Below are positions 3,832 to 61,200 of a stretch of DNA of 64,000 nucleotides, one piece after another; position 1 is the first letter of the stretch; every line of letters begins with the position of its first letter. Made by a program: the position numbers and the translations under genes. Below the pieces are notes generated by a model. The model saw nothing but the letters and a program-made list of their open reading frames with translations, searched no databases and had not been told where the DNA came from. The DNA is taken from positions 1-64,000 of the forward strand of contig JAIXUS010000052.1 of NCBI GenBank assembly GCA_027483445.1. The letters are read 5' to 3'. This DNA is from Bacteroidota bacterium (GTDB lineage Bacteria; Bacteroidota; Bacteroidia; M30B66).

Positions 3832-4536
3832 TTATTGGCAATAAGATTCCATTTTCTTTCGAACGCTGCGTGATCTTTTGTTTTCCGGAATGGTGGAAAT
3901 GGTTTCGCAGGCCAGTTTATCGTCGCCCAGCGCAGCCAGGCAGTCGGCTTCCATTTCGAGATTTTTAATTGTAGGTTGACCGGCTTCCTTAAGTTTGATA
4001 AGGTGATACAAACAATCTTTGTAAACCTTGTCTTTATAGGCCTTTTCGGCCCTTTCGGTGTGGATTTTCAGTTGTTTTGAAGTGAGTCCGCCAGTTTTTT
4101 CTGACAACGAAGGTTCATCGTCTTTGGGAAATGTAAATCGAATAGGGAGCGTCATTTTGGCACGAACAGCCTTACCATTCATGTATCCAGGTTTCCAGTT
4201 TGGCATTTTACCGACTACCCTCAAGGCTTCGTCGCTCATGCTTTGGTGTGGCGACTTTAATATCGTTTGATCACTAATGCTGCCGTCGGTATTCACAACA
4301 AAAGTAACATACACCACACCACTAATTTTCTCTTTTCTGGCTTCGTTTGGGTATTTCAGATTCTTAAGCAGAAAGGCATACATAGCTTCCTGCCCGCCGG
4401 GAAACTCAGGCATAATTTCAACCCTATAATTTGCGCTAGTGTCGGGCGCCGTACGTGAAGATTGCTGAGACCACAATGGCTGAAAGAATAAGCCCAGGCT
4501 GAGAATGGTGAGGGCTGTGAGTAAGCTGTTTTTCAC
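3832..4536 (-). CDS. TonB C-terminal-domain protein with helical C-terminal extension, copy 3 of 3
   Basis: 234 residues and first gene of the minus-strand run. A signal peptide (ending LWSQQ, about residue 25) precedes a TonB C-terminal domain at about residues 38-135 (EFPGGQEAMYAFL, LKYPNEARKEKISG, LKSPHQSMSDEALRVVGKMP). Unlike its two neighbours it continues for about 95 residues of charged helix with repeated Lys/Glu and alanine pairs (HTERAEKAYKDKVY, ADCLAALGDDKLACETI). This suggests a TPR-like pair or a coiled coil. A sequence TACATTTA upstream on the minus strand resembles a Bacteroidota -7 box. Function is inferred only from the fold. Confidence 0.82.
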   Translation of the reverse strand: MKNSLLTALTILSLGLFFQPLWSQQSSRTAPDTSANYRVEIMPEFPGGQEAMYAFLLKNLKYPNEARKEKISGVVYVTFVVNTDGSISDQTILKSPHQSMSDEALRVVGKMPNWKPGYMNGKAVRAKMTLPIRFTFPKDDEPSLSEKTGGLTSKQLKIHTERAEKAYKDKVYKDCLYHLIKLKEAGQPTIKNLEMEADCLAALGDDKLACETISTIPENKRSRSVRKKMESYCQ

Positions 4537-4621
4537 AATATGAATTTGGGTTAAATGTAGTGAATGGTTTTGTTACAGTTTTGCCCGGATTCTCGATTGC
4601 TGGGTTTGGTTAATATGTTCC

Positions 4622-4669
4622 TGAGCTGTTGAGCCCCTGCAATCGCACTCCAGGGTTGAGATTTTTTTT
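4622..4669 (+). repeat. Solo diverged copy of the 120-bp repeat core
   Basis: This segment contains GAGCTGTT, CCCCTGCAATCGCACTCC and a T-rich tail. It matches the core of the five-copy tandem repeat at 5629-6240 and lies about 1 kb away on the same strand. It sits between the tonB-like genes and the Abi-like gene. Confidence 0.7.
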
Positions 4670-4742
4670 ACTGGTATTCAGCCATCTAAGCAGAGTACTT
4701 AACATCGTATTGGAAGGAAAGTATGGCTTCACGATTACAATT

Positions 4743-5426
4743 TTAAATTGCATCAATTTGATCACAGACTGTATGAATATGGTCAATTCCATACAGTAGT
4801 TTCCCCTCGTCTATAGTCATCCATTGGAATAGCTGTAAAATCAGCCCATAATGTTGGCGTGCGTAAGTCGTTCCTTTTACGGGTTTACCCGGCACAAAGC
4901 AAATAGGCTCGTGATGTGCAATTCGATTGCGCAAATTGTTTATTTGCGCTAACTGATTGAAAACAAAGGTTTGATTATACTGCATGGCTGCAGTGCTTGT
5001 AGGTTTGGCTGGGAAAATTCGAAGAAGTGTTTTACCTGTTGCTGCAAATTGATTAGGCGCAAACATGTAACGCCAAAATCCGAAACCCAGTTCTGCAACA
5101 AGTTTGTTGTGTGTGTAAAGGTGGTTTAGCTTGTGTAATGCATCATTGATATTATCTCGGGTCAAGCGGCAATGCCTGTTGTTAAAGATTCCTCCATCAG
5201 CAGCACCATTGCGCAACCAGTCATTTCCAAGGGTTTGATTAAGCTGATTGTCTATGGTATTTCGCAAAGCAATTTCAAAGCAACTGATAACTGTAAATAG
5301 TTCCTGAGAAAGTAGCAGGTTCTTGCGATAAAGGGTCATAGCTTTCTTGCTATTGCCATTACATGCCGTTCGATAGCGACTCATTCTGGCCGGCGTCATT
5401 ATCTTTTCAAAGTCTTGAAATTTCAT
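4743..5426 (-). CDS. Abi-like protein with HEPN RNase motif
   Basis: 227 residues, largely helical, no signal peptide or membrane segment. Near the N-terminus ISCFEIALRNTIDNQL matches the Abi-like (AbiD/AbiF, Abi_2) family signature. Residues 166-171 read RNRIAH and are followed by HEP, which is the HEPN ribonuclease motif R-N-x3-H. Family members are abortive-infection or toxin-type proteins thought to cut RNA when phage infect. No antitoxin-sized partner gene is adjacent: upstream there is only ~200 bp and then the tandem repeats, and downstream are tonB-like genes. It therefore looks like a solitary defence gene. A housekeeping role cannot be excluded. Confidence 0.8.
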   Translation of the reverse strand: MKFQDFEKIMTPARMSRYRTACNGNSKKAMTLYRKNLLLSQELFTVISCFEIALRNTIDNQLNQTLGNDWLRNGAADGGIFNNRHCRLTRDNINDALHKLNHLYTHNKLVAELGFGFWRYMFAPNQFAATGKTLLRIFPAKPTSTAAMQYNQTFVFNQLAQINNLRNRIAHHEPICFVPGKPVKGTTYARQHYGLILQLFQWMTIDEGKLLYGIDHIHTVCDQIDAI

Positions 5427-5628
5427 CCTTAACTTTTATTTGCTTGTGCAGTTTAAATATACGTATCTTTACATCACCTTATTCCCGGTAGTCCCTGAAG
5501 CAATTCAAACTGCCGGGTTTCGTTTTTTATAAGGGTTTCCCATTCTTCAGTTATTATTGGAAATATGAAAATTAGAGGTAAGCAGCATTGACCGTAACTA
5601 CTACTTCAAGTGAGCTTGTTGGGAAACG
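5427..5628. other. Short intergenic, promoter side of Abi-like gene
   Basis: About 200 bp of AT-rich sequence between the Abi-like gene start and the tandem repeat array. It contains CCCGGTAGTCCCTGAAG..CTGCCGGG, a possible hairpin. No gene is seen. Confidence 0.5.
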
Positions 5629-6240
5629 GGATTATTTCATGATCCCTGAATGGGGGAGCTGTTCAACCCATGCAATCGCACTCCTACGGAGTTCGATTTT
5701 TATTTTACTCCTACTCACCGCTTCAAGCAAGCTTGGCGGTTTGGGTTGGGATTATTTCATGATCCCTTGAGGGGGGAGCTGTTCAACCCATGCAATCGCA
5801 CTCCTACGGAGTCCGATTTTTATTTTTAGCCCACGCGAAGCTTCAAGCAAGCTTGGGTTTTTGGGCGGGATTATTACATGATCCCATGGGGGAGGAGCTG
5901 TTCAACCCATGCAATCGAACTCCTACGGAGTCCGATTTTTATTTTAAGCCCACGCGCCGCTTCAAGCAAGCTTGGCTTCTGGTGGCGGGATTATTTCATG
6001 ATCCCTGAATGGGGGAGCTGTTCAACCCATGCAATCGCACTCCTACGGAGTTCGATTTTTATTTTAAGCCCACGCGCCGCTTCAAGCAAGCTTGGCTGTT
6101 GGTGGCGGGATTATTTCATGATCCCTTGAGGGGGGAGCTGTTCAACCCCTGCAATCGCACTCCTACGGAGTTCGATTTTTATTTTAAGCCCACGCGCAGC
6201 TTCAAGCAAGCTTGGCTGCGCGTGGGCTTAAAATAAAAAA
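5629..6240 (+). repeat. Tandem array of five ~120-bp repeats ending in a 25-bp inverted repeat
   Basis: Units begin with GATCCC at 5641, 5761, 5880, 6000 and 6120, so the period is 119-120 bp. Each has GAGCTGTTCAACCC, TGCAATCGCACTCC, TACGGAG and a T-rich stretch, then AAGCCCACGCG and TTCAAGCAAGCTTGG. The last unit is capped: 6176-6200 is perfectly complementary to 6215-6239, giving a 25-bp stem with a 14-nt loop. The array lies immediately downstream of the minus-strand tRNA-Ser terminator. Open frames through it are just the repeat read in phase, since the period is divisible by three. It is not a CRISPR array because there are no unique spacers. Confidence 0.9.
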
Positions 6241-6259
6241 ACCGGCTGAGGCCGGTTTT
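6238..6259 (-). terminator. Terminator of tRNA-Ser
   Basis: Perfect 9-bp palindrome AAAACCGGC/GCCGGTTTT with a TGAG loop. On the minus strand it is followed by a T-rich run. It lies 8 nt after the encoded CCA of tRNA-Ser. Confidence 0.85.
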
Positions 6260-6267
6260 GCATGGGT

Positions 6268-6355
<88 letters not shown>

Positions 6356-6412
6356 GGGGGCAAAAGTAGTAAAGTGAATCATTTCACAAAAAAAAAGATT
6401 GGATTTCTTTGG

Positions 6413-6420
6413 TAGATTTG
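6413..6420 (+). promoter_or_regulatory. -7 box TAGATTTG for the 6437 gene
   Basis: Matches the Bacteroidota -7 consensus TAnnTTTG, 16 nt before the ATG at 6437. Confidence 0.6.
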
Positions 6421-6436
6421 CCCGAACAAGCTCGAA

Positions 6437-7339
6437 ATGACGGTCTTTCGCCATTTTTTTTTCGCTATTGCCCTGTTTTGCCACTGCACTATTTCGGCGC
6501 AGCGCGATAGCCTTCAATGGCAACGGAAGTCGCAAGTGTATTGGTATTCAGGAGTTTCCCTCGCTTACCTAAGCAGTATGTCGCTGCTGTACCAAACATG
6601 GTATGCTCCATACAATACTGGGAAGTTTCATTTTTTCAACGACAATGCCCAATGGGGCGGAATGGATAAGATTGGACACTTCACAACAACATGGTGGATG
6701 GCTGATTTCATCCGCAGCTCTGCTGCAATCTCCGGAATGAAAAAAGAACAAGCCCTAAAACTTGGCCTGTTGGTTCCCTTCGTTTACTCGAGCACCATCG
6801 AAGTTTTTGATGGATTTTCGGAAGGCTGGGGTTTTTCTGCGGGCGATTTTATCTCCAACATCGGTGGAATTGGCTTCAGCTACCTTCAATACAGATACCC
6901 TGTGCTTAATGAGGCCTCCATTCGGTATAGTTACACCAATGATGCATGGCCATCTCTCCGACCAAATATCCTCGGCAATTCAACACCCGAGCGTATGCTT
7001 AAAAACTACAATGGACAAGCCTATTGGTTGAGTTTTCCGGTGAAATGGATGATCCCTTCCTCTCCACCGTGGCTGCTGCTTTCTGCCGGGTATAGTATCG
7101 ACGGCTACCTTGGAGGAAGTAGTAATGTTTACTTTGAAAAGCAGCAATGGATAAATTATAGTCACGTGCAGCGGAATCCAGAGATATTTCTCTCTCTAGA
7201 TATCGACTTACAGAAAATTCCAATTCAAGGAAAGGGATGGAAACTCTTTACGCAACTCTTTCGCTGGGTGAAAATTCCAGCTCCCACGCTGGCTTTCTGC
7301 CCGAACAAGGGAATTCAACTGCATCCTTTGCGTTGGTGA
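6437..7339 (+). CDS. DUF2279 / YfiM-like protein
   Basis: 300 residues with an N-terminal signal segment (ending ISAQ, about residue 21). The middle has the DUF2279 pattern: MDKIGHFTTTWW, then ALKLGLLVPFVYSSTIEVFDGFS, GWGFSAGDFISNIGG, and several short hydrophobic stretches. The family is a predicted envelope protein (YfiM is called a periplasmic lipoprotein in enterics) of unknown function. No lipobox Cys is seen here. The start fits a -7 box 16 nt upstream. It is monocistronic, divergent from tRNA-Ser and 50 bp before the next possible frame. Confidence 0.8.
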   Translation: MTVFRHFFFAIALFCHCTISAQRDSLQWQRKSQVYWYSGVSLAYLSSMSLLYQTWYAPYNTGKFHFFNDNAQWGGMDKIGHFTTTWWMADFIRSSAAISGMKKEQALKLGLLVPFVYSSTIEVFDGFSEGWGFSAGDFISNIGGIGFSYLQYRYPVLNEASIRYSYTNDAWPSLRPNILGNSTPERMLKNYNGQAYWLSFPVKWMIPSSPPWLLLSAGYSIDGYLGGSSNVYFEKQQWINYSHVQRNPEIFLSLDIDLQKIPIQGKGWKLFTQLFRWVKIPAPTLAFCPNKGIQLHPLRW

Positions 7340-7420
7340 GTAAACCCTTTTTCACAATGTACCTAACAGCATCTTGTTCGTGACTTAGTATGAAGCCTAC
7401 TTCAATTGAAAATGTTTCGC

Positions 7421-7428
7421 TACATTTG
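7421..7428 (+). promoter_or_regulatory. -7 box TACATTTG for the type B T9SS protein
   Basis: TACATTTG lies 30 nt before the ATG at 7459. It falls inside the longer open frame that begins at 7390 and so argues for the downstream start. Confidence 0.6.
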
Positions 7429-7458
7429 TTGAGTTTCAGTGTGCCGTTGAACCTGACC

Positions 7459-9378
7459 ATGTATATGACCCATCGTTTGAAGTGGATATTAACCCCGCTA
7501 ACTGCGGTTTTCCTCTTAATTGGTTTACCCATTTCTCTTTTTGCTCAAGCTCCACTTCCCGGCGATTGCCTTGGAGGCTTTACCGTTTGCGCTCTAAATT
7601 ACAATCAGCCTCAGTCGTTTCAAGGCTCAGGAAATGTCCAGAATGAGATTAATCCAAACTCATCTTGCCTAAACAATGGTGAGATTAACAACGCATGGTA
7701 TATCATTACCGTGCAAACCCCGGGAATGTTTGGATTTAACCTCACGCCCAATTGCGATGGAGCAGATTATGACTGGGCACTTTTCAATCTCACGAACGCT
7801 ACCTGTGCTGATATTGCTACAGATCCTACGTTGCAGTCTTCTTGTAATTTTTCCGGCTCTACCTTTCCAACCGCACAAACCGGAATGAACAATGGAACAA
7901 ACCCTCAGGACGAAAACATGATTCCTGTTGTTGCCGGGCAAACATTCGCATTGGTAGTCAATAACTTTACATCCAATACATGCGGCTACATTCTCGACCT
8001 ATCGATTTCTTCAGCAGGTATTATCGATGTTTCGCGTCCAGAACTAAACGCCATCACCTCTCAGGTAAATTGCGGTTCTAATGCGATTACTTTTACATTC
8101 ACTGAATTCGTTCGTTGCAATTCAATTAGTTTATCCGATTTCTTTTTGCTTGGGCCATCCGGCGATCCACTACCACTTTCGGGTGTCAGTAGTGTGGGGT
8201 GTGCCAACGGTGGGGCTTACGATAAAGAGTTTACCCTCCTCCTGGGCAACCAACTTTTCGAAGGCGGAACCTATACTTTCGGTGTTGCCGGAGCCATTGA
8301 AGATCTCTGTGGAAATATCAATTCCGACAGTCAGATAGTATTTTTCAATATTGCCTCCTTTGAAATTTCTACCAATTTCACTCCTGTCGACTGTCGCCTA
8401 AACAACGGAACAGCTACTGCTACCATCACCAATGGTGGTGTACCTCCTTTCGACTATATCTGGGTTCCGGCAAATCAAGGTACGGCCACTGCTACGGGAC
8501 TGCCTTTCGGTTGGCAGGAAGTAACAGTTACCGATTCTGAAGGCTGCATCGTGCGCGATTCTGTATTCGTGGAAGACAACAGCAATTTCGCTGTTCAGGT
8601 GGTGACCATTCCCGATACCTGCTCTTTTGGATTAGGTACTGCATTCGCCATTGTTACCGGAGGCGAGCCATTTACCTCACCACCGGCGCCGGATCCATAC
8701 ATCTATTTTTGGAATGTGGCCGACCAACCCAACGACACTACTTTTATCGATAGTCTCCTCACCGGAACCTATCAAATGTCGGTTCGCGATAGCTTTGGTT
8801 GTGTTTATGATGTTGAATTTACCGTTCCTGATTATCGATTTAATCTGGAGGCCGACTTCGAATTTTCTCCAGATGAAGACCCAATCACAGGGCTTCTTCC
8901 CGTAGTTTCATTCATCAACCAATCGCAGAATGCAAGCTCATTCATGTGGAACTTTGATTCTGGCGATATTTCCAACGAATTTGAACCCGATTATGTGTTT
9001 CCCGGGTCCGGAACATTCGATGTGAAACTCATTGCCATGAATTCATTCGGTTGCAAAGATTCCATTACCAAGCCGGTCAACATCGATTTTGTACTTAACT
9101 ATTTCGCGCCGAATGCATTTTCTCCAAACGAAGATTTGGTCAACGACTCCTTCCGGGTTACGGTAAACGGCATTTGGGATTCCACCTTTGTTATGTGGGT
9201 GTATAACCGATGGGGCGAAGAAATTTTCGTAACCAACGATAAGAAGGTTGGTTGGGACGGTAAACATCAATCGGGCAGCAGGGTATGCGAAGCCGGGGTT
9301 TACATTTACCGGGTGTTCTTCTACGACCAGTCGGGCAAAAAGCACCTTTTTGTGGGTAAAGTTTTGCTGGTTGGCTGA
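7459..9378 (+). CDS. Secreted protein with PKD domain and gliding-motility (CHU_C, T9SS type B) C-terminus
   Basis: About 639 residues from the ATG at 7459 (another ATG at 7465). The N-terminus (HRLKWILTPLTAVFLLIGLPI..LFAQ) is a signal peptide. The first ~200 residues are Cys-containing beta-sandwich sequence (GDCLGGFTVC, NNAWYIITV). Next come SprB-like segments (GGVPPFDYIWVPA, VTVTDSEGC) and a PKD-type domain near VSFINQSQNASSFMWNFDSGD. The end has NYFAPNAFSPNEDLVNDSF, YNRWGEEIF, WDGKHQSG and GVYIYRV, the CHU_C gliding-motility-associated / type B T9SS sorting domain. It is probably anchored at the cell surface. An in-frame start at 7390 was rejected because the promoter box lies inside it. 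Confidence 0.88.
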   Translation: MYMTHRLKWILTPLTAVFLLIGLPISLFAQAPLPGDCLGGFTVCALNYNQPQSFQGSGNVQNEINPNSSCLNNGEINNAWYIITVQTPGMFGFNLTPNCDGADYDWALFNLTNATCADIATDPTLQSSCNFSGSTFPTAQTGMNNGTNPQDENMIPVVAGQTFALVVNNFTSNTCGYILDLSISSAGIIDVSRPELNAITSQVNCGSNAITFTFTEFVRCNSISLSDFFLLGPSGDPLPLSGVSSVGCANGGAYDKEFTLLLGNQLFEGGTYTFGVAGAIEDLCGNINSDSQIVFFNIASFEISTNFTPVDCRLNNGTATATITNGGVPPFDYIWVPANQGTATATGLPFGWQEVTVTDSEGCIVRDSVFVEDNSNFAVQVVTIPDTCSFGLGTAFAIVTGGEPFTSPPAPDPYIYFWNVADQPNDTTFIDSLLTGTYQMSVRDSFGCVYDVEFTVPDYRFNLEADFEFSPDEDPITGLLPVVSFINQSQNASSFMWNFDSGDISNEFEPDYVFPGSGTFDVKLIAMNSFGCKDSITKPVNIDFVLNYFAPNAFSPNEDLVNDSFRVTVNGIWDSTFVMWVYNRWGEEIFVTNDKKVGWDGKHQSGSRVCEAGVYIYRVFFYDQSGKKHLFVGKVLLVG

Positions 9379-55934: not shown

Positions 55935-57446
55935 ATGAGCGAAATGTCGGAATTAGAGCGTCAACGCCGCGATAGTCTTGAAGAAATCAAAAAGCTGGGA
56001 ATCGATCCGTACCCGGCTGAATTGTTCGCCGTAAACACCACTGCGGCCGAAATAAACCGCGAATTTGAGGCCGACAAAAAGAACTTTCAGGAAGTGAGCA
56101 TCGCCGGTCGAATCATGACCCGCCGGATCATGGGAAATGCCACTTTTGCCGTAATTCAGGACAGCTCCGACCGCTTGCAGATTTACATCCGCCGCGATGA
56201 TATTTGTCCAACCGACGATAAAACATTGTACAATACAGTTTTCAAAAAATTACTTGATATCGGCGATATCATTGGGGTTACGGGGTATATGTTCGTAACC
56301 CAAACCGGCGAAAAAACGCTGCATGTAACTTCACTGAAATTGTTGTGCAAATCGCTACGCCCACTGCCTATTGTAAAGGAAAAAGACGGCGAAGTGTATG
56401 ATGCCTTTGCGGATCCTGAACTGCGTTACCGCCAGCGTTATGTTGATTTGATTGTAAACCATCAGGTAAAGGAAACCTTTGTAAAACGTACTATTCTTAC
56501 CAATACCATTCGCGAATACCTGAACAATCGTGGTTATCTCGAGGTAGAAACGCCCATTTTACAGCCATTGTATGGTGGTGCCGCGGCTCGTCCCTTCAAA
56601 ACGCATCACAACACGCTCGATATGACGCTCTATTTGCGGATCGCCAACGAGTTATACCTCAAACGGCTGATTGTTGGCGGTTTTGACGGAGTGTATGAAT
56701 TTGCCAAGGATTTCCGCAACGAAGGCATGAGCCGTTTCCACAACCCTGAATTTACGCAGGTGGAGTTGTATGTGGCTTACAAAGATTATGAATGGATGAT
56801 GGAGCTTGTGGAAGAAATGGTGGAGCAAGTTGCCTTGCGCATTCACGGCAGCACCGAGGTACAGGTGGGCGAACATCTCATCAATTTTAAGCGCCCTTGG
56901 AAACGAATGACCATGTACGAGGCGATACAGCACTTTACAGGCGTCGACGTTTCAGAGATGGATGAGGCCGCCATGGCTGCTGCCGCGCGAAAGCTGGGCA
57001 TCGAGGTGGATGCCTCGATGGGGCGTGGTAAACTCATCGACGAAATTTTCGGCGAAACCTGCGAGCCTCATTTAATTCAGCCCACATTTATCACCGATTA
57101 CCCTGTGGAAATGTCGCCACTGGCCAAGAAGCACCGCAGCAAACCCGGCCTGGTAGAACGTTTCGAAGGAATTTGCAATGGCAAAGAAATCTGCAATGCT
57201 TTTTCCGAATTGAACGATCCTATCGACCAGCGCGCCCGCTTCGAAGAGCAGCTGGAGCTTGGCAAGCGCGGCGACGAAGAGGCGATGGTTTTAGACGAAG
57301 ATTTTCTCCGCGCCATCGAGTTCGGCATGCCACCCACAGCTGGCCTCGGCATTGGCATCGACCGTCTGAGCATGATCATGACCAACTCCAAATCCATCCA
57401 AGACGTCCTGTTTTTCCCTCAAATGCGAGCCGAGCGCGACGCCTAA
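55935..57446 (+). CDS. lysS: Lysyl-tRNA synthetase, class II
   Basis: 503 residues. N-terminal OB-fold anticodon-binding domain (about 58-150: [23 protein letters not shown]). The catalytic core has motif 1 ([30 protein letters not shown]), motif 2 ([18 protein letters not shown]) and motif 3 ([13 protein letters not shown]). It charges tRNA-Lys. Odd: the last seven codons and the TAA stop (57422-57446) lie in a palindromic repeat that recurs twice just downstream. The final residues MRAERDA therefore differ from the usual short end after FPQM. Confidence 0.96.
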
Positions 57447-57627
57447 GGCGCGAGGTTCGCATTCAAGGATACCTCTGATTGAGAATAAATATTCAATCCT
57501 TAAATGCGAGCCGAGCGCGACGCCTAAGGCGCGAGGTTCGCATTCAGCGATACCATAGTTTAAAAAACAGAAATTGAATCGTTAAATGCGAGCCGAGCGC
57601 GACGCCTAAGGCGCGAGGTTCGCATTC
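57421..57627 (+). repeat. Three copies of a 44-bp palindromic repeat at the lysS 3' end
   Basis: Copies at 57421-57464, 57502-57545 and 57584-57627, identical over about 44 bp. Outer arms AATGCGA/TCGCATT and inner palindrome CCTAAGG. Period about 82 bp, and copies 2 and 3 share the downstream TCAGCGATACCATAGTTTA. Copy 1 encodes the end of LysS. Confidence 0.9.
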
Positions 57628-58244
57628 AGCGATACCATAGTTTAGAATTAGTGTTTTTTGGGCGTTCCGGCCCGCCAAGCTCCAAATCCACCTAAAACTC
57701 CCGGGGCCGTCGCGCTTTCCGCTGCAAGTCCTCGCACCTCCGCTCCCTTCCGCTTCGCTCCGGGAACGGCTCCGGTGCTGCGGGCTTTCCGCTGCAATCG
57801 CTAACGAAGGCTTTCCGGGGTGAATAGACCGGAAACATTTTTGGGAATAGTGTTAATTTATTGGTGTTCCAAGCGGTATTACAAATGCCGCCTAACGGGG
57901 TAAGAAACACGAAATACGTTATACGTTTGCCCCCACGTATTAGTGTCGCGCATTCAAATGTTAACCCGCATCCTCTAAAGACTAAGGATAAAGACCAAGT
58001 ACTCATTGATCTTTTCCCTGAATTTAGTGCCAGCGGGTGCAGCGGATACCCCGGAAAACAGAGTGCGTGTGGGAGCTAGAGCGTGCGGGAGTGAGTGTGT
58101 AGGGGAGCGCAAGCGGAAAGCAGCGCGATGGCGGCTCTGTTTGAGGAGTATGAGCGAAACACGCGGTGCCCGGCGATGCAGCAAAAGTATACCGAAATGC
58201 TGAGCGAGGCAGGCACCCTAACAATAAATTTTAATCTTCAAATC
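57628..58244. repeat. GC-rich repetitive intergenic region
   Basis: No gene. GCTTTCCGCTGCAA occurs at 57713-57726 and again at 57784-57797; an inverse relative GCGGAAAGCAGCGCGATGG lies near 58109. An inverted copy of the 34-bp module from 232-265 is at 57865-57898. The short frame at 58129 is a repeat-derived fragment. Confidence 0.65.
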
Positions 58245-58298: not shown

Positions 58299-61200
58299 TT
58301 AATGCTTTACGAGGCGGAAGGTTTGTCCCTCCACGCGGAGCATGTAAACGCCGTCGGCATGCTGACCTAAGTCGAGCAGGTTCTCCGCATTGTTCCAGCG
58401 ACCGGCTTCTATGAGTCGACCGCGGGCATCCAGTACTTCGTAACGTACATCGGCGCGTTGACCAAGTTTTACGCGGAACTGTGCTTCAGAGGGGTTCGGG
58501 AATATTTCCATCACCGCGGCGGCTGCATTATGAATGCCCACGTTGGTTACAATTACGCAAGGTGTAGTTACTGAGCAGGTTGAAGAACTCATTTGTACGG
58601 CATACAATCCGTTTTGTGTTGGGGTGAACGATTGCTCGGTTGCGCCCGGAATTGCTGCGTTGGTGCTGCAGTTGATCCACTGGTAGCTTACTCCTGAGGT
58701 TTGTGCAGCGGTAAGTACGCCCTGGTTATTGCTGATTTCGGTGCTGATATCGACAACTTCTACATCGATGGTCATGAAAGCCGAGCAGCCTTCGCCATTC
58801 ACAAATTCGATTACATACACACCGGTTTCGTCGAATTGGAAGCCATTGAAGGTATAAGGACCGCAAGAGGTAACTTCCATGCTTTGGTTGAGGATATCCA
58901 ACAAGGCATAATCGAAGCAATCAACCACTCCGTCGCCATTGGCATCGCCTTCCACTTCGTTGGGATCGATGTTGCCGTTTCCATTGGTATCGCCGGCTAC
59001 TTCGCCTTCGCCCACTTCGCCATCACCGTTGGTATCGCCCACAATTTCCTGGTCGGTAATTTCGCCATCACCATTGGTATCGCCGGCCACTTCTTCGTCG
59101 TTGATGCTGCCATCACCATCGGTGTCGCCGGCTACTTCTGGCGCATTAATTTCGCCGTCGCCGTCGGTATCGCCCGCCAATTGGGTAATCACGATATTAA
59201 AGGTTACCACGCTGTCGCATCCACTGGCATTTTCCAATACCTGAATGTATGCGCCCGATTCGGTGTAGGTAACGCCGTTAGCGCTGTATTGTTGGAAGCC
59301 GACCGCTGAAATGCTGGCCGACGATGGTTGCAGAATGGTTAGCGTTAAGGTAACCACCGAATCGCAACCGGCCACTGAACTTAAGGTTTGGGTATATATT
59401 CCCGAAACCTCATAGATCTCGCCATTCCAAACAAAGTTGCTGCAGGCCGTTTCGGCAATGGCTGTGCTCAATACCGGGTGAATGGTGAGGTTGAGCGTAA
59501 GCACCGAATCACAACCGGCTACTGTACTCAGGTTTTGGGTGTAAACACCACTTTCTGTGTAGGTTTCGCCGTTTAGTGTGTACGAAACGCAGGCCTGGGC
59601 ATCGATTGAAACTGACTCGCTGCTGTTGATGGTCAGGTTGAGTGTAATGACTGAGTCGCAACCTGCGGCGTTTTCCAATGTTTGCTCATACACACCACTT
59701 TCGGTGTAGGTCGTGCCATTCAACACATAGGCGTTGCAGGCTGAGGCCGTGATGGCTGCAGTGCTGCTGCTGTTGATGCTGAGGTTCAGTGTAATGACAG
59801 AGTCGCAACCTGCGGCATTTTCCAAAGTTTGCTCATACACACCACTTTCGGTGTAGGTCGTGCCATTCAACACGTAGGCGTTGCAGGCTGAGGCCGTGAT
59901 GGCTGCAGTGCTGCTGTTGTTGATGCTCAGGTTGAGTGTAATGACTGAATCGCAACCTGCGGCATTTTCCAAAGTTTGCTCATACACGCCACTTTCGGTG
60001 TACGTCGTACCATTCAACACATAGGCGTTGCAGGCTGTCGCCGTGATGGCTGCAGTGCTGCTGCTGTTGATGGTAAGGTTGAGTGTGATTGTTGAATCAC
60101 AACCTGCGGCATTCTCCAAAGTTTGCTCATACACACCACTTTCGGTGTAGGTAGTGCCATTCAACACGTAGGCGTTGCAGGCTGAAGCCGTGATGGCTGC
60201 CGTGCTGCTGCTGTTGATGGTTAGGTTGAGTGTAATGATAGAATCGCAACCATTTACTGCGGTTAACCTTTGCGTGTAAATCCCTGAAGCGGTGTAGGTA
60301 GTGCCGTTGAGCACAAAGCTGTTGCAGGCGGTTTGGATAAGACTCGCGGTAATTTCGGCGGGCTCATCAACCACCACATCGCGCACAACACTGCATCCGT
60401 TTGCGTCTTCGATACTTACTTGATACGCACCGGCACTCAGGTTAGAGGCGTTTGCTTCGGTTCCACCCACGGGCGACCATGCGTAGCTGTAAGGCGCAGT
60501 TCCGCCGCTGGCCACCACAGAGGCCGATCCGTCATCACCACCAAAACAGCTAACATCGATAGATTCTGCAGAGGCTTCAAGCTGTGATGGCTGCGTAATG
60601 GTAAAGTTAACTGTAGTTGAACAGCCATTGTCATCACCAATAACTACGCTGTAGCTGTTGGCACTGAGTCCGCTCACTGTTGCTGTAGAGGCATTTACAC
60701 CGGTCCAGCTGTAGCTGTATGGCGCAGTGCCACCGGCTGCAATCACAGCGACCGATCCATTTTCGCCGCCGAAGCATGAAACGTTGTTTTGACTACTGTT
60801 GGCGCTCAGGGCTTCAGCAGGCTGACTTACTGTAATGGTTTCAGTTTCTACGCATCCACCGGCATCGGTTACGGTTACGGTATAATCTCCTGCAGTGAGG
60901 CCGTTGATATTGTCGACATTACCGGCTCCATTTGACCAGGAGAAGGCGTATGATGAAGTTCCACCGGTTACGGAAACTCCGGCGGCGCCATCGCTACCAC
61001 CGAAGCAAGACACAGGAATTGAGCCTCCTGAAACCGAGAGTGCTGAGCCAGGCTGAACAATGGTCACATCGTTGGTAGCCGAGCATCCATTCGCATCTGT
61101 AACGGTTACGGAGTACACACCGGCAGTTAGGCCGTTGGCTGATGCGGTATTTCCTCCTGTTGGCGACCAGGCGTAGGTGTAAGGGCCTGTTCCACCTGAG

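Follow-up and report, generated by a model that had tools for sequence, protein, structure and literature searches.

A tandem array close behind a tRNA gene

The window, i.e. the entire stretch of 64,000 nucleotides that was analysed, carries on its minus strand a tandem array at positions 5627-6218, for which TRF gives a period of 120, 4.9 copies, 90% matches and a score of 946, the units being spaced 119-120 bp from start to start. At the end of the array lies a hairpin formed by a perfect 25-nt inverted repeat (6176-6200 with 6215-6239), and the minus strand of 6170-6245 folds with -46.4 kcal/mol (z = -11.06), a value as good as which was reached by none of 200 shuffles. An Abi_2 gene (4743-5426, minus strand; Pfam PF07751, E = 2.1e-07) lies between the array and a diverged remnant of the unit at 4623-4669 (minus strand), which was recognised by inverted repeats, pattern search and alignment, and which aligns to the array unit with a score of 47 as compared to at most 25 for the best of 200 shuffles. 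The original prediction had described five copies of about 120 bp at 5629-6240 with two dyads per unit, a perfect 25-bp hairpin and a solo core at 4622-4669, and this description is borne out by TRF, by an inverted-repeat check on which the hairpin is exact, by the finding of both dyads in the sequence and by the alignment of the core. What it had overlooked is the tRNA-Ser(TGA) gene close behind the hairpin (6268-6355, minus strand), which was identified by ARAGORN and by the Rfam tRNA model, has an encoded CCA and serves as the anchor of the element described below.

Architecture of the element in the window

Read from the tRNA along the minus strand, the CCA is directly followed by a trailer a (ACCCATGCAA, 6258-6267), delimited by its sequence and its inverted-repeat partners, and by hp1 (6240-6257), the terminator-like hairpin of tRNA-Ser (AACCGGCCTCAGCCGGTT) with a subsequent T tract, which was assigned by eye and from the layout common to the elements. 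There follow the two arms of the long hairpin, namely arm b, made up of a T tract and AAGCCCACGCGCAGC (6215-6239), and its mirror b' (6176-6200), which together constitute the perfect inverted repeat, and between them a central loop CAAGCTTGCTTGAA (6201-6214) that is taken from the fold and, by eye, has similar counterparts in some other elements. Beyond b' lies hp2 (ACTCC-GTA-GGAGT, 6155-6175), a hairpin evident from sequence and fold whose position mirrors that of hp1 but whose sequence differs, and then a' (6143-6154), an inverted trailer that reads TTGCAGGGGTTG here and, exactly, TTGCATGGGTTG in the remaining four units, as seen from the sequence and its inverted repeats; the inverted-repeat search accordingly returned an inverted copy of the tRNA-Ser trailer, CAACCCATGCAA, in four array units. 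The element is completed by a linker AACAGCTCCCCCCTCAA (6126-6142), a part defined by linkers being more alike within than between isotypes, and by a T-arm copy in which the T-loop is replaced by a hairpin (GGGATCATGAAATAATCCC, 6107-6125), an assignment based on the match of such copies elsewhere to their own tRNA and on the 17-mer scan described below.

The tandem array thus consists of about five copies of the right half of the element, with further T-arm copies at 5628-5646, 5748-5766, 5867-5885 and 5987-6005 (all minus strand), and the remnant at 4623-4669, on the far side of the Abi_2 gene, retains linker, a' and hp2. The Abi_2 gene is a passenger outside the element. The copies in the window keep the T-arm only and have no full displaced tRNA 3' end, and in local alignments the units are not clearly more similar to tRNA-Ser than shuffles are (11 of 500 being as good in the best case); the link of this particular locus to the tRNA therefore rests on its position, on the mirrored trailer and on its relatives.

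Copies in the same genome and in related genomes

A search of the genome of the window (G000) finds no second place for the full unit besides the array. When three mismatches are allowed, the pattern of linker and core occurs at this locus and at one further place, there with all three, and the core CACTCCTACGGAGT, for which a genome-wide search had been proposed, is confined to the array at up to one mismatch; an exact 21-mer scanned over the genome collection gave no hit. Two other tRNA genes of this genome, tRNA-Pro(tgg) and tRNA-Cys, carry the same layout. The element of the window is not more similar to that of tRNA-Pro than shuffles are and bears a weak likeness to that of tRNA-Cys (score 30, shuffle maximum 23), so that no copying within the genome is demonstrated. 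The proposal that the unit can disperse thus stands in altered form: it is the hairpin-forming family that apparently disperses, and the solo copy is a displaced relic, whereas the sequence of the unit is not dispersed in this genome. Likewise, the absence of other copies had been expected to indicate simple local slippage; such copies are indeed absent at the level of sequence, but the rule is misleading, since the tRNA-anchored architecture recurs.

In G002, a genome of the same genus, unit, hairpin, tRNA-Ser and the next gene (DUF2279) are found in the same order on a contig that starts inside the unit; the hairpin arms are again perfect over 25 bp and show one compensatory difference, A:T to C:G, with respect to G000. 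On a second contig of G002, partial copies of the unit are arranged around a toxin-antitoxin-like gene pair instead of Abi_2 (L026:530-1630; gene types assigned by eye), with an adjoining nucleotidyltransferase-like ORF, and Abi_2 (PF07751) has no match in nine other genomes of the order that were searched. The accessory genes between the copies seem to change. The presence of other genes beside partial copies in G002 also suggested integron-like cassette sites, an interpretation that was set aside as the tRNA anchor explains more.

Two other genomes of the same genus, G003 and G001, have arrays of different make-up. G003 has a 136-bp unit in 4.1 copies behind tRNA-Ser, an array which, from the alignment and by eye, is composed of degenerate tRNA-Ser 3' halves plus a terminator, and the same degenerate halves are found in G001 at a contig start, where the array is cut by the contig end. 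In these halves (L037:1229-1781 in G003 and L036:1-140 in G001) the anticodon loop and the T-loop are both converted to a hairpin of the TCCCATCGGGA type. Located at the same tRNA, the arrays of G003 and G001 represent another type of tRNA-derived repeat.

A common layout in the Bacteroidota

Starting from the tRNA, the elements share a layout of CCA, a, terminator-like hp1, T-rich b, a small hairpin, b', hp2, a', linker and a T-arm copy of the form GGATC...AATCC, in which a hairpin replaces the T-loop at about position 57, by eye. In the elements read by eye the sequence of hp2 differs from that of hp1. Element length is mostly about 100-170 bp, short forms of about 100 nt without the middle being present at L301, L303, L311 and L345, and by eye the right half is multiplied also at L046, L048, L169, L223, L270, L277, L284 and L329.

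The exact 17-mer GGATCATGAAATAATCC from the T-arm copy of the window was scanned over 84,980 species, each represented by one genome, giving at least 116 loci. Among the matches listed, a same-strand tRNA precedes the 17-mer by 39-349 nt at 66 of 116 loci, at 42 of which the distance is 131-154 nt, while the 17-mer is found only 5' of a tRNA at one locus and only on the opposite strand at another. At 50 of the 116 loci listed, other phyla included, there is no tRNA ahead on the same strand within 400 nt; chance matches are to be expected here, about 30 in the whole collection by our own arithmetic under equal base frequencies. With the exception of one MAG labelled Rhizobium, the tRNA-linked loci among these matches are labelled as Bacteroidota (65/66), and they represent fewer than 66 genomes, as the pairs L324/L338, L330/L385 and L370/L384 share a genome each. 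By isotype the 66 loci listed comprise Ser (23), Arg (16), Pro (10), Cys (5), Met (4), Tyr (3), Val (2) and Leu (2) as well as one unassigned case, and cultured genera with the element include Flavobacterium, Sphingobacterium, Winogradskyella, Brumimicrobium and Niabella. A search for viral carriers gave seven contigs, with no tRNA in the stretches examined. Of the Rfam families, only tRNA scored above the gathering cut-off in 12 element loci.

Arrays and mirrored trailers behind tRNA genes

The surroundings of tRNA-Ser(TGA) were surveyed at 90 loci of 105 genomes from a class sample with a tRNA-Ser match, plus five loci from the genus and family, leaving out, among others, G011 and G071, in which the contig breaks off immediately after the tRNA, and rows whose flanks agreed over the initial 200 nt. 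The start of a tandem array falls within 300 nt behind the tRNA in nine of 85 genes having at least 300 nt of 3' flank and in front of it in none of 94, and a mirror score of at least 16 is reached behind 13 of 90 genes as compared to 0 of 95 in front. Contig ends, too, fall within 300 nt behind this tRNA more often than in front of it (10/95 vs 1/95). In a control set of tRNA-Leu genes, one array of other make-up was found in 34 genes, and none of 38 reached a mirror score of at least 16; this array (L104, G111:C59), behind tRNA-Leu(cag), consists of 4.1 copies of an 86-bp unit of GCCGCGAATG...CATTCGTGGC hairpins, a make-up unlike that of the element.

A second survey covered all isotypes in the four genomes G000, G103, G069 and G050, with 141 tRNAs called by ARAGORN in the fetched loci out of 148 tRNA matches. 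Mirrored trailers, defined by a mirror score of at least 15, were present behind 15 of 138 tRNAs and in front of none of 138, one of the 15 loci (L249) resembling simple repeats. Tandem arrays were counted 12 times behind tRNAs, that at L277 being counted twice since two tRNAs precede it, and once in front, the sole array on the 5' side being a 147-bp repeat in 4.3 copies 5' of tRNA-Ala (L263, G050:C83). Contig ends within 300 nt of the 141 tRNAs number 12 behind and three in front. Two short contigs of G069 (C47 and C10; L281, L282 and L285) have several tRNA matches each, some of them weak, and possibly represent a tRNA-rich mobile region.

Folding and displaced copies of the tRNA 3' end

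The fold test was applied to 43 standard-length elements of the 66 listed loci. The central helix is formed in 40 of the 43 elements (dinucleotide shuffles, 140/430; downstream stretches, 6/34), and the central together with the outer helix in 29/43 (73/430 and 4/34, respectively). A looser junction count, which skipped 11 elements outside 100-230 nt and those with N, gave 18 of 31 elements, hardly better than the 41 of 155 simple shuffles, and 3 of 18 downstream stretches. When the sequences were aligned for covariation, the arms proved to turn over too fast to align. The structure may be selected, or it may be kept by palindrome correction.

In many elements the T-arm copy extends into a displaced copy of the 3' end of the very tRNA in front of it: copies behind tRNA-Met keep GTCCAG, those behind tRNA-Pro AATCTTGCCACC and those behind tRNA-Ser(GGA) AATCCCTCACTCTCCGCC, each as in its own tRNA. 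In 64 of the 66 listed loci, the 11 nt following AATCC were compared with tRNA ends. Among these matches, at least 10 of the 11 positions are identical to those of the own tRNA in 18 of 64 elements, a level reached by none of 3212 comparisons with tRNAs of another isotype, the mean identity being 6.6 as compared to 3.0 positions; 46 of the 64 elements listed are without a full displaced 3' end. A comparison of T-arm and T-loop left out four of 46 elements, in which the T-loop was not located by the script. The linkers, too, are more alike within isotypes, with a difference of 1.17 as compared to a maximum of 0.53 in 1000 label shuffles.

When the 60 nt behind the 18 full displaced ends were compared with the first trailer, five were strongly and two slightly alike, and 11 were not above shuffles; several of these 11 show, by eye, another terminator-like hairpin. 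An unlike trailer behind the displaced ends fits an insertion that brings its own terminator, and local duplication explains some of the cases, as also in the comparison of L062 with L058.

Similar elements behind different tRNA genes

Three pairs of loci carry closely similar units behind different tRNA-Ser genes. The alignment of L335 (Ser-TGA) with L366 (Ser-GGA) reaches from the first base behind the tRNA as far as the T-arm copy and contains 139 matches in 158 nt; L150 (Ser-TGA) and L267 (Ser-GGA), which belong to a single genome, have 350 matches over about 380 nt, corresponding to more than two units; and L300 (Ser-GCT) and L333 (Ser-GGA) have 157 matches over 174 nt. The tRNA bodies of these pairs, excluding the last 20 nt, are 67-76% identical, and their 5' flanks are no more alike than shuffles (144-186 of 200 shuffles being as good); their 3' flanks score above all 200 shuffles. 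A weaker pair of this kind is L223/L284, behind tRNA-Arg(TCT) and tRNA-Arg(ACG) in G069. Closely similar elements behind different tRNA-Ser genes with unrelated 5' flanks suggest, from sequence comparison, that elements move between tRNA genes. A search of the fetched loci for an empty site with matching flanks gave no usable pair.

With respect to a possible mover, no downstream protein family is shared by more than three of 61 loci within 3.5 kb (some loci having less flank), the family present in three of them reading across the element itself, and by this comparison of downstream ORF families in the 61 loci no encoded integrase or other mobility protein was found. At L057:1780-2120, a small GIY-YIG-like ORF is flanked by a tRNA-Ser element on one side and, on the other, by a larger piece of tRNA-Ser with a hairpin inserted in its anticodon loop, and ORFs of this family, assigned by eye, are found right behind tRNAs also in L133 and L105. 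A GIY-YIG endonuclease was rejected as the mover: beyond the three query loci there is one match on the 3' side (L164) and two on the 5' side, and hence no link.

Origin of the elements

Taken together, we consider it fairly probable (roughly 0.6) that the array in the window arose by amplification of the right half of a small palindromic element, non-coding and inserting at tRNA 3' ends in Bacteroidota. Such an element would be inserted in one piece at the T-loop/3' end and would restore the tRNA with the 3' end that it carries, the old 3' end being displaced downstream, where the altered T-loop would prevent the displaced copy from serving as the end of a tRNA or being targeted anew. In the window, unequal recombination would have multiplied the right half (central hairpin through T-arm copy) about fivefold, and the Abi_2 gene would have come between the array and the one outlying copy at 4623-4669. 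Since no encoded protein was found, such an element would have to be moved by a trans-acting recombinase or endonuclease, or by gene conversion primed by the tRNA end. Points against this reading are the 46 of 64 listed elements with no full displaced 3' end, the displaced ends that are followed by the same trailer as the tRNA, the listed loci with no same-strand tRNA ahead, and the search for an empty site, which gave no usable pair. Only tentatively do we go further and propose a protein-less homing element, i.e. a palindrome of 100-170 bp that would occur solely at tRNA T-loop/3' ends, replace 3' end and terminator with its own, mark the displaced copy by the T-loop hairpin as a form of self-immunity, and spread only within one isotype, across the Bacteroidota.

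Alternatively, the same arrangement could be produced locally by template switching during replication, in which the polymerase would fold back twice, first at the terminator and then at the palindromic T-arm, leaving sense, inverted and sense copies of the 3' end that slippage then turns into arrays, with no mobile element involved. The mirror being built from the local trailer, the palindromic nature of both switch points, the terminator repeated on both sides at L062 and the five of 18 displaced ends with clearly the same trailer as the tRNA all speak for this reading, as do the hairpin arms of the window, whose perfect pairing in two diverged species is what palindrome correction would produce. 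However, the closely similar units behind different tRNA genes with unrelated 5' flanks, the unlikeness of hp2 and hp1 where elements were read by eye, the recurrence of T-loop insert and isotype-related linker across families, and the different trailer behind 11 of the 18 displaced ends speak against it, and we regard it as unlikely. A structure selected at the level of RNA or DNA, in which the extended trailer folds into a junction for termination, tRNA 3' processing or protection from read-through and copies are kept by virtue of this function, would agree with an architecture that is kept while the arm sequences turn over, with the excess of central (40/43) and of central plus outer helices (29/43) over 140 and 73 of 430 shuffles, and with the one compensatory difference between G000 and G002. 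Yet most tRNA genes are without the element (mirrored trailers being present behind 15 of 138), the looser junction count (18/31) hardly exceeds that of simple shuffles (41/155), and the array copies consist of the right half alone, so that this explanation appears somewhat less probable still.

The juxtaposition of the repeat array and the Abi_2 gene could also be read as a type III toxin-antitoxin system, with the repeats as the RNA antitoxin of an Abi_2/AbiF-type toxin. AbiF systems do use structured RNA motifs, two of them in C. difficile (PMC12373285), and resemble the locus in having repeated structured units beside an Abi_2 gene. Here, by contrast, the repeats follow a tRNA and not the toxin gene, G002 (86% complete) has array units with no match to Abi_2 and has other genes beside the partial copies, the abiF RNA (RF03085) is not matched at E values of up to 10 on either strand of 4000-7500, and the element family occurs at many tRNAs in many genomes; a role as antitoxin is thus largely refuted and very improbable. 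Scarcely any weight at all can be given to REP or BIME sequences moved by a RAYT transposase, which short hairpins, tandem copies and an outlying copy might bring to mind: the copies are anchored to a tRNA and not dispersed in this genome, and the search for a RAYT that had been suggested for this locus returned no match to Y1_Tnp (PF01797) in G000 or in G002, a domain present in seven of ten genomes of the family.

Comparison with known systems and significance

The preferred reading, a small palindromic element inserting at tRNA 3' ends, has parallels in several known systems. In Escherichia coli, the 178-bp repeats of tyrT (rtT RNA) are arranged in tandem close behind a tRNA gene, and a plain fragment of the tRNA 3' end is carried by each of them. 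The window likewise has a tandem array just 3' of a tRNA gene, and in both cases each repeat has a piece of the tRNA 3' end; what differs here are the mirrored terminator, the T-arm copy with its replaced T-loop, and the occurrence at several isotypes within one phylum, and rtT RNA is not among the covariance-model matches of the window locus at E values of up to 10. Integrative elements such as islands and prophages that insert at tRNA 3' ends carry or duplicate the end from the T-loop to the last base, thereby restoring the tRNA and leaving a displaced 3' fragment. The complete cases among the elements described here (18 of 64 of those listed) likewise have a second copy of their own tRNA's 3' end at the border away from the tRNA, but the elements are mostly about 100-170 bp in size, with no gene found, a palindromic body and an altered T-loop.

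Palindromes of the REP/BIME and MITE type are likewise small, non-coding, non-autonomous and able to form arrays; GTAG and CGTC REPs are described in PMC3733652. In contrast to these, the element is tied to tRNA genes instead of being scattered, its ends are derived from the host tRNA, and the genome has no RAYT match; a trait that it has in common with MITEs is the presence of a similar unit at different sites with unrelated 5' flanks, in three clear pairs and a weaker one. A description of such elements was not recognised in the open-access literature searched, PMC5771137 included, and as subscription papers lie outside that literature a prior description is possible.

Should the preferred reading be true, the 3' trailers and terminators of some Bacteroidota tRNA genes would be delivered, and be replaceable, by a tiny mobile palindrome. 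This would help to account for the regions rich in repeats, and for the breaks in assemblies, that are found downstream of tRNA genes, and the element may seed gene islands at these sites. It also raises the question of what moves a gene-less element that must match the 3' end of each tRNA.

Two further tandem repeats are present in the window: an 82-bp repeat in 2.8 copies with GC-rich dyads at 57417-57644, which has no adjoining tRNA in the window, and a 147-bp repeat in 4.3 copies with 91% matches at 59619-60251, which is possibly repeated coding sequence.
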